From: Pseudomonas graminis
Lineage (GTDB): Bacteria > Pseudomonadota > Gammaproteobacteria > Pseudomonadales > Pseudomonadaceae
Length of the DNA: 64,000 nucleotides
Reading direction: 5' to 3'
Assembly (NCBI RefSeq): GCF_013201545.1
Contig: NZ_CP053746.1
Coordinates: 5,284,501-5,348,500, forward strand
Shown: piece after piece, positions 24,997 through 60,437 of the stretch
How positions within the stretch are numbered: the stretch's first letter is position 1
Layout of the letters: each line of letters opens with the position of its first letter
The notes under the pieces: model-generated
Database searches by the model: none
The model's input: only the letters and a program-made list of their open reading frames with translations
What the model was told of the DNA's origin: nothing
Position numbers and translations under genes: made by a program

Positions 24997-25106
24997 GGCA
25001 ACCCCACCAGCCACACCCCGGCACACAATGTTCCCGCTGTGGCTGCTGCCTTCCGGCTCTGACCAGGTTCACGGGTAATCGTTGCGGGGGGACCGATGGG
25101 GTCACC
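24997..25106 (-). ncRNA. ffs: 4.5S RNA of the signal recognition particle
   Basis: RNA partner of Ffh, which targets membrane proteins to the translocon. Read on the minus strand, the sequence contains the conserved tetraloop region GTCAGAGCCGGAAGGCAGCA, CCCGCAACG on the 5' side and GTGTGCCGGGGTGTGGCTGG on the 3' side. The ends pair: GGTGACCCC (25106-25098) with GGGGTTGCC (25005-24997), allowing two G-U pairs. Ends are set by this helix; mature ends may differ by several bases. Confidence 0.95.
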
Positions 25107-58263: not shown

Positions 58264-58450
58264 TTGCGCCACATCCACAATAATTATTTCCCATGCCTGC
58301 CCGGCCGGCCCTGTCCTGGACTCGGGTGTAGTCCGTACTGTGAGCGGCGCAAGCGCCGGAAATTCCATCGGGAAGCAACATTTGGTCGAAACGTTGTACA
58401 GATTCGGCAAATGAATGGGTGCACAAGGGTGTTCGCCAAATCGCAGGCAA

Positions 58451-58578
58451 TAAAAAACCCGCCGAAGCGGGTTTGTGCAACACCGTCCAACTTCCTGTTG
58501 GCCGCCAATGCCTGGCAACGGTCGATCGTCCTTGATCCTGCAGCGGTCCGTTGCTGCAGTTGATGGATCCAATGTACC
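58451..58578 (-). ncRNA. Rsm-type small RNA (RsmX/Y/Z-like RsmA/RsmE sponge)
   Basis: On the minus strand, about 128 nt, ending in the terminator AAACCCGC-TTCG-GCGGGTTT followed by TTTTT. It has repeated GGA triplets, three of them in loops of perfect hairpins: CTGCAGC-AACGGACC-GCTGCAG (58559-58538), GATC-AAGGAC-GATC (58537-58524) and CCAAC-AGGAA-GTTGG (58501-58487). Others are TTGGATCC near the 5' end and TTGGACGG near the 3' end. Length, GGA loops and terminator are those of Rsm sRNAs, which titrate RsmA/RsmE. The 5' end is approximate. Confidence 0.82.
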
Positions 58579-58619
58579 GCGAGCGCGTGTTACAACCTAG
58601 AGCCAAGTTCCTCAGGTCG

Positions 58620-58637
58620 TGTAAGCCTTTCGCTATA
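58620..58637 (-). promoter_or_regulatory. candidate GacA binding site upstream of the Rsm-type sRNA
   Basis: Minus-strand TATAGCGAAAGGCTTACA compares with the GacA box TGTAAG-N6-CTTACA: the right half CTTACA is perfect, the left half degenerate. It lies about 42 bp upstream of the estimated RNA start. Confidence 0.55.
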
Positions 58638-58805: not shown

Positions 58806-60437
58806 ATGAATATGCGCAATCTCTCGATCAGCCGGCGTTTGTGGCTGATTCTCATCGTCGCCGTGGTGATGCTGTTTACACTGGCGGCGGCGATGCTCAA
58901 GCAGATCCACGACGATCTGTATGAAGCCAAAACCATCAAGACCATGCACGTGGTGCAGACCGCCAGCGGCCTGCTCGACTTCTACCATGGCCTGGAAACC
59001 GCCGGGACCCTCACCCGCGAACAAGCGCAGCAGCAGGCGATGGATGCCATTCGCGGGCTGCGCTACAACCAGACCGACTACTTCTGGATCAACGACCTGC
59101 GCCCGGTGATGATCATGCACCCGGCCAACCCCAAGCTGGTGGGCCAGGACCTGTCCGGCATCAAAGACCCGGACGGCTTTCAGGTCTTCAACGAGATGGT
59201 GACACTGGCCAAGGCCAAAGGCGCCGGCATGGTCAACTACCGCTGGCCCAAGCCCGGCGCCACTGACGCGGTCGGCAAGACCTCCTACATTTCGCTGTTC
59301 GCGCCGTGGGGCTGGATCATCGGCTCCGGCGTCTACATCGATGACGTGCAGGCCGAGTTCTACAAGCAGGTGGTCAAGGCGCTGTCGATCAGTGCCGGCA
59401 TCATTCTGGTCATGGCGCTGCTGTTGATTCTGATCGCGCGCAGCATCGCCGGCCCGCTCAAGGCCACCGTCGAGGCGATGGCCAACATTGCCAGCGGGGA
59501 AAGCGACCTGACCCGCACCCTGGCAACTCAGGGCAACGACGAAGTCACCCAACTGGCCCGGCACTTCAACGCGTTTACCGCCAAGCTGCGTGGCGTGGTC
59601 AGCGAGTTGCAATCCTCGGCCGTCGGCCTTGGTCAGGCGTCCAGTGAGCTGGGCAGCAACGCGATACAAGCCCAGGAACGCAGCCAGCAGCAGTCGTTGC
59701 AGATGGAGCAGGTGGCGACGGCGGTCAATGAGGTCACCTATGGCGTGCAGGACGTGGCGAAGAACGCCGAGCACGCCGCCAGCGAGATGCGCAACGCCGA
59801 GTCCCAGGCGCAGCAGGGTCAGGCCAACATCGACAGCAGCCTGAAGCAGATCGGGCACCTGTCCGGGACGATCGATCAGGCCGTGGAAGTGATTCGCACG
59901 CTGGCCAGCGAAAGCACGCAGATCGGCGGCGTGCTGGAGGTGATCAGTTCGATTGCCGAGCAGACCAACCTGCTGGCGCTCAACGCCGCTATCGAGGCCG
60001 CCCGCGCCGGTGATCAGGGCCGTGGCTTCGCCGTCGTAGCAGATGAAGTACGTCTGCTGGCCCAGCGCACGCAGAAATCCACGGCGGAAATCCAGGCGAT
60101 GATCGAGCGGCTGCAGGCGCATTCGGATGCGGCGGTGAAAGTCATCGCCGACAGCAGTCGTTCGTCGCAGTTGACCATCGAGCAGGCCAATCTGGCCGGC
60201 CAAAGCCTGACCTCCATCAGCCAGGCGCTTCGCAACCTCAACGGCCTCAACGCCTCTATCGCCAGCGCGACCCTTGAGCAATCCCATGTGGTGGAAGACA
60301 TCAACCAGAACGTCACTCAGGCGGCGCAGTTGTCCCAGAGCACGGCGGTGGCGGCGGAACAGTCCAGCGCGGCGAGCCATCAGCTCAAGGGGTTGAGTGA
60401 ACAGCTGAATGGGTTGTTGCGGCAGTTTCGGGTTTAA
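58806..60437 (+). CDS. methyl-accepting chemotaxis protein with a single-Cache sensor
   Basis: Inner-membrane chemoreceptor of 543 residues. Order: membrane segment 1 (about 10-30), periplasmic sCache_2-type domain (about 35-185, with [14 protein letters not shown] and [14 protein letters not shown]), membrane segment 2 (about 190-212), HAMP (about 215-265), and a signalling domain with the hairpin tip [20 protein letters not shown] and [18 protein letters not shown] 58806 has GGAG eight bases upstream. The sensor type often binds small carboxylates; the ligand is unknown. Confidence 0.94.

Follow-up and report, generated by a model that had tools for sequence, protein, structure and literature searches.

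An rsmX small RNA gene with a GacA-type upstream element in a 64-kb stretch of Pseudomonas graminis DNA

The 64,000-nucleotide stretch of Pseudomonas graminis DNA analysed here, which as a whole we call the window, carries an ordinary rsmX gene on its minus strand, a member of a known family of which multi-copy genomes have already been described. RsmX is a well-known small RNA thought to titrate the RsmA-type repressor proteins of Pseudomonas. With a probability of roughly 0.96, we consider the gene to be functional, one of two rsmX genes found in the genome, activated by GacA and acting by titration of RsmA/RsmE. Judged from its sequence, it is very probably RsmX specifically and not RsmY or RsmZ, which map elsewhere in the genome. 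We regard the identity of the RNA as settled, because an Rfam E-value of 7.8e-15, a conserved locus and covariation all support it. Transcription, GacA dependence and sequestration of RsmA/RsmE are the likeliest properties of this RNA by analogy with its family.

Family match and predicted fold

Along the minus strand from 58564 to 58452, the Rfam model RF02144 (rsmX) aligned over its full length (model positions 1-114 of 114) with 87.5 bits (cut-off 56), the E-value above being that for the window. A first-pass annotation, made from base pairing, had recognised the design of an Rsm-type RNA here, and the match bears this out. The comparison with the Rfam Rsm models that it proposed places the rsmX match at this site and the RsmY and RsmZ matches elsewhere in the genome; at the window RNA itself, neither RsmY (RF00195) nor RsmZ (RF00166) was matched in the own-genome search with each model at E <= 0.001 among the candidates scored. 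The hallmarks of RsmX membership occur together: a score above the gathering cut-off over the whole model, at least three loop-exposed GGA words, a 3' Rho-independent terminator, a GacA element at a fixed distance and, in the same genome, both GacA and RsmA/CsrA-family partners.

The window scan left out one lower-scoring overlapping match from the same clan as rsmX. Matches to isrB (19.6 bits) and isrK (18 bits) and an rsmX match on the plus strand (58397-58477, 17.7 bits) fell below their cut-offs and were rejected. A relation to phages was likewise rejected: 102 phage records match, and among the 20 listed it is query bases 164-197, the terminator end alone, that are matched. Long reading frames spanning the RNA are taken as mechanical, and a literature search on the rsmX covariance model found no paper. 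Elsewhere in the window, a gene for the bacterial small SRP RNA lies at 25002-25098 (minus strand, 75.4 bits).

Table 1. Positions of the rsmX gene, its elements and its neighbours in the window.
Feature	Positions	Strand	Basis
rsmX small RNA gene, 113 nt	58452..58564	minus	ends as in Rfam model RF02144
GacA upstream activating sequence, rsmX form, TATAGCGAAAGGCTTACA	58620..58637	minus	comparison with published upstream activating sequence
likely -10 box TACATT	58571..58576	minus	6 bases before predicted first base
hairpin 1, CUGCAGC/GCUGCAG, 7 bp, GGA in loop	58538..58559	minus	predicted fold
hairpin 2, GAUC/GAUC, 4 bp, GGA in loop	58524..58537	minus	predicted fold
hairpin without GGA, GCC AGGCAUU GGC, inside closing multibranch stem	58504..58516	minus	predicted fold
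hairpin 3, CCAAC/GUUGG, 5 bp, AGGA in loop	58487..58501	minus	predicted fold
intrinsic terminator, UUCG loop and U-run	58452..58474	minus	Rfam alignment, predicted fold
downstream neighbour, single-domain response regulator, 125 aa	57865..58242	minus	PF00072, 53.7 bits
divergent neighbour, methyl-accepting chemotaxis protein with sCache_2 sensor	58806..60437	plus	PF00015, PF17200, PF00672

The predicted fold has an energy of -44.7 kcal/mol and a z-score of -2.92, and none of 200 shuffled sequences folded as well. All three GGA-loop hairpins of the first-pass annotation are found (Table 1); its description of them as consecutive holds for the first and second, which adjoin, but not for the second and third, which are separated by a hairpin without GGA. 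The two further GGA words that it counted lie outside the loops at 58538-58536 and 58488-58486 and bring the total to five, in an RNA of a predicted 113 nt and not the 128 nt it gave. The UUCG-loop terminator was correctly recognised, with the core ACCCGC-UUCG-GCGGGU at 58472-58457 (minus strand) followed by the T-run.

GacA element and likely promoter

The GacA box is a palindrome, TGTAAG-N6-CTTACA. Upstream of the RNA, a half-perfect box had been noted; its CTTACA is indeed present (58625-58620, minus strand), but "half" does not hold, as these bases form the right half of an 18-mer, TATAGCGAAAGGCTTACA, which in its entirety is a GacA element of the rsmX form. This element ends 55 bases before the predicted RNA start and is one base apart from the published rsmX element of P. 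brassicacearum, TATAGCGAAACGCTTACA (PMC7911923). Its left half departs from the palindrome, as those before the examined rsmX genes usually do, and the element is absent among the own-genome sites within 2 mismatches of TGTAAG-N6-CTTACA. At this threshold the strict palindrome is unspecific, because its 47 matches per strand in the genome are fewer than the 66 of the reversed control; its matches include sites before rsmY (0 mismatches) and rsmZ (1 mismatch).

The rsmX-form pattern, with the one differing base left free, occurs at 4 sites in the genome when up to 3 mismatches are allowed: the window site, which alone has 0 mismatches, a site before the other rsmX with 1, and two more at 3 mismatches. 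The reversed control of the pattern likewise yields 4 sites, so that only close matches and their position count. Between the element and the RNA, the sequence TACATT is likely the -10 box, a promoter role suggested by its position and by its retention there in 14 of the 16 orthologs (altered in L065 and L067).

Copies in the genome and in the genus

Two rsmX genes were found in the genome, about 160 kb apart (150 of 1000 first-look candidates scored). The second scores higher (92.5 bits) and has a similar terminator and a GacA element with one mismatch. The same genome holds one match each, at E <= 0.001, to RsmY (150 of 399 first-look candidates scored) and RsmZ (150 of 156), as well as four CsrA-family genes and one regulator above the NCBI cut-off for the UvrY/SirA/GacA family (315 bits versus 280).

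With stricter filters, rsmX scored above the cut-off in 24 of the 57 genomes searched, our own included. All are among the 36 Pseudomonas genomes, of which 8 more gave weaker matches only, and none among the 21 genomes of other genera. Where copies were counted in the 20 genomes behind the scanned loci described below (covering 20 of the 28 loci), 19 had at least two rsmX above the cut-off and one, G074, had a single copy; the genomes of the five nearest loci (L052-L056) have two each. Pairs of rsmX whose starts are 211-238 bases apart, similar to the tandem arrangement of P. brassicacearum, occur in the relatives L023, L032 and L036.

A copy was also observed on a plasmid (96.9 bits; L111:5976-6089, corresponding to NZ_CP135972.1, 80313-80426), a 98-kb record from a Pseudomonas isolate from human blood and the only record found when 72,556 plasmids were searched with three rsmX sequences as queries (E 1e-5). 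Curli (csg) genes lie upstream of this copy, and 57 bases before it stands a GacA-like element, CATGGCAAAAGGCTTACA, of 3 mismatches; no gene is listed at its position in a gene table that is without RNA genes.

A conserved locus

By way of the neighbouring response regulator, 59 loci were fetched, 31 of them from other bacteria with a regulator identity of 25-40%. The RNA scan covered the best 28 (L052-L079), of which 27 are titled Pseudomonas and one, L073, gamma proteobacterium L18. In 16 of the 28 (L052-L067), rsmX lies above the cut-off upstream of the regulator gene, and each of these 16 loci also has the chemotaxis receptor, with rsmX between it and the regulator. At the 12 others (L068-L079), where the regulator relatives are weaker (49-68% identity), neither an rsmX above the cut-off nor a receptor match was found. 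By this locus, the nearest named relatives are Pseudomonas sp. CFBP 13711, P. petrae and P. graminis, and the position of rsmX is conserved across this group. Two observations stand apart: a further relative, L021, has an rsmX beside a 77% identical receptor near a contig end (585 bases), and L063 has a match to TwoAYGGAY RNA, of the same Rfam clan as rsmX, at 157-221 on the minus strand, barely reaching the cut-off (43.1 versus 43).

Conservation in relatives, which the first-pass annotation had made a test of its reading, extends to the GacA element (0-2 mismatches), the GGA words and the terminator in all 16 other Pseudomonas records. Taking the window and these 16 loci together, the element is free of mismatches in 6, has 1 mismatch in 10 and 2 in a single locus, its spacing from the RNA is 55 bases in 16 and 56 in 1, and the RNA contains five GGA words in 13 and six in 4.

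The RNA shares its strand with the regulator gene just downstream, and the pair stays together in 16 of the 28 scanned loci, which could point to a structured, RsmA-controlled leader of the regulator mRNA instead of a free small RNA. We judge this to be very unlikely, as the terminator with its U-run would stop the RNA about 210 bases before the regulator gene, the full-length match is to a family of stand-alone RNAs, and the other rsmX of the genome, complete with element and terminator, has no match to the regulator or the receptor around it (3.1-kb stretch, E 1e-10). There is equally little to recommend a silent or decaying rsmX copy, for which the higher score of the second copy might speak: the window RNA is identical to that of L052 (Pseudomonas sp. 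CFBP 13711), and every one of the 16 orthologs retains the element with at most 2 mismatches, the spacing of 55 or 56 bases, five to six GGA words and the terminator.

Alignment and covariation

The rsmX sequence of the window was aligned with 35 further sequences, namely 13 of the 16 orthologs, the second copy of the genome, 20 rsmX of other relatives and the plasmid copy; L054-L056 (RNA equal to L053), L026-L028 and copies without a locus were left out. All 36 sequences keep the GGA in the loop of hairpin 2. RNAalifold gave a consensus of 26 pairs, in which covariation contributes a modest -1.48 of the -24.82 kcal/mol and from which the hairpin without GGA is absent. Across the 35 distinct rows, 97.2% of the cells in this structure pair, a score favoured by the derivation of the structure from the same alignment; slid versions of it pair 29-48%.

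Nine pairs have changes on both sides, compared with a shuffled mean of 3.6 (35 distinct rows), and none of 500 shuffles reached the observed value on any of the five measures used, although shuffles can be beaten by relatedness alone. These two-sided changes fall on hairpin 1 (4 of its 6 consensus pairs, with 91.4% of cells paired), hairpin 2 (2 of 4), the closing stem (2 pairs) and the terminator (1 pair). Hairpin 3 pairs in 99.3% of cells and its changes are one-sided, hence it has no covariation of its own. For 22 further rsmX genes, other than the window gene and its orthologs, the distance from the best-matching element to the RNA is 55-57 bases in every case. That element shows 0-2 mismatches in 13 of the genes, 3 in 7 and 4 in 2, and CTTACA is intact in 21.

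Within the window, searched on both strands for Watson-Crick stems of at least 4 pairs with loops of 4-8, no other place packs three GGA-loop hairpins, free of overlap, into 130 nt. Shuffling the sequence 60 times with dinucleotides preserved gave such clusters at a mean of 0.93 per 64 kb, both strands counted, and because they are not rare there, GGA loops alone are weak evidence. Across all 60 shuffles, a single cluster reached stem lengths of at least 7 and at least 5 bp in two of its hairpins, and none was followed by a T6 run within 60 nt downstream. Hairpins that carry GGA by chance, for which this rate of about one cluster per 64 kb might argue, have a negligible probability here, since the Rfam match already refutes them and covariation and the conserved locus also stand against them.

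Discussion

We propose that the rsmX gene of the window works as its relatives are thought to do. Phosphorylated GacA would act at the upstream element, and transcription would begin at about 58564 and end near 58452, where the UUCG terminator lies. The hairpin loops of the RNA could then display GGA and mimic the sites of RsmA/RsmE on mRNAs, and titration of these proteins would free the repressed mRNAs. The existing understanding of how Rsm RNAs act is unchanged by this gene, which adds one well-supported member to the presumed Gac/Rsm output of Pseudomonas near CFBP 13711, P. petrae and P. graminis. That the linkage of rsmX with receptor and regulator is functional, in the sense that the single GacA element found between the divergent genes also sets receptor expression, seems to us improbable; if it were so, sponge-RNA output and chemotaxis would be tied to one switch.

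Compared with RF02144 RsmX as a family, the window gene has the full-length match, the three exposed GGA loops, the terminator and the rsmX-form GacA element, and differs in nothing essential, although the sequence of its hairpin 1 is unlike that of the other copy in the genome. RsmY (RF00195) and RsmZ (RF00166) share its Rfam clan and its presumed job, but are separate genes elsewhere in the genome, and rsmY has a perfect palindromic element. RsmX1-5 of P. syringae pv. tomato DC3000 were reportedly described by Moll et al. in 2010. According to PMC7911923 and PMC7366521, P. syringae has up to five rsmX copies; DC3000 resembles our genome in having several, with five there versus two found here. 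A close parallel is P. brassicacearum NFM421 with rsmX-1 and rsmX-2. There, as described in PMC7911923, rsmX-2 was detected by Northern blot and 5' RACE, its transcription requires GacA, and its overexpression restores a gacA mutant. Both genomes have two rsmX genes with near-identical GacA elements; the copies are in tandem in P. brassicacearum (PMC7911923), but far apart here.
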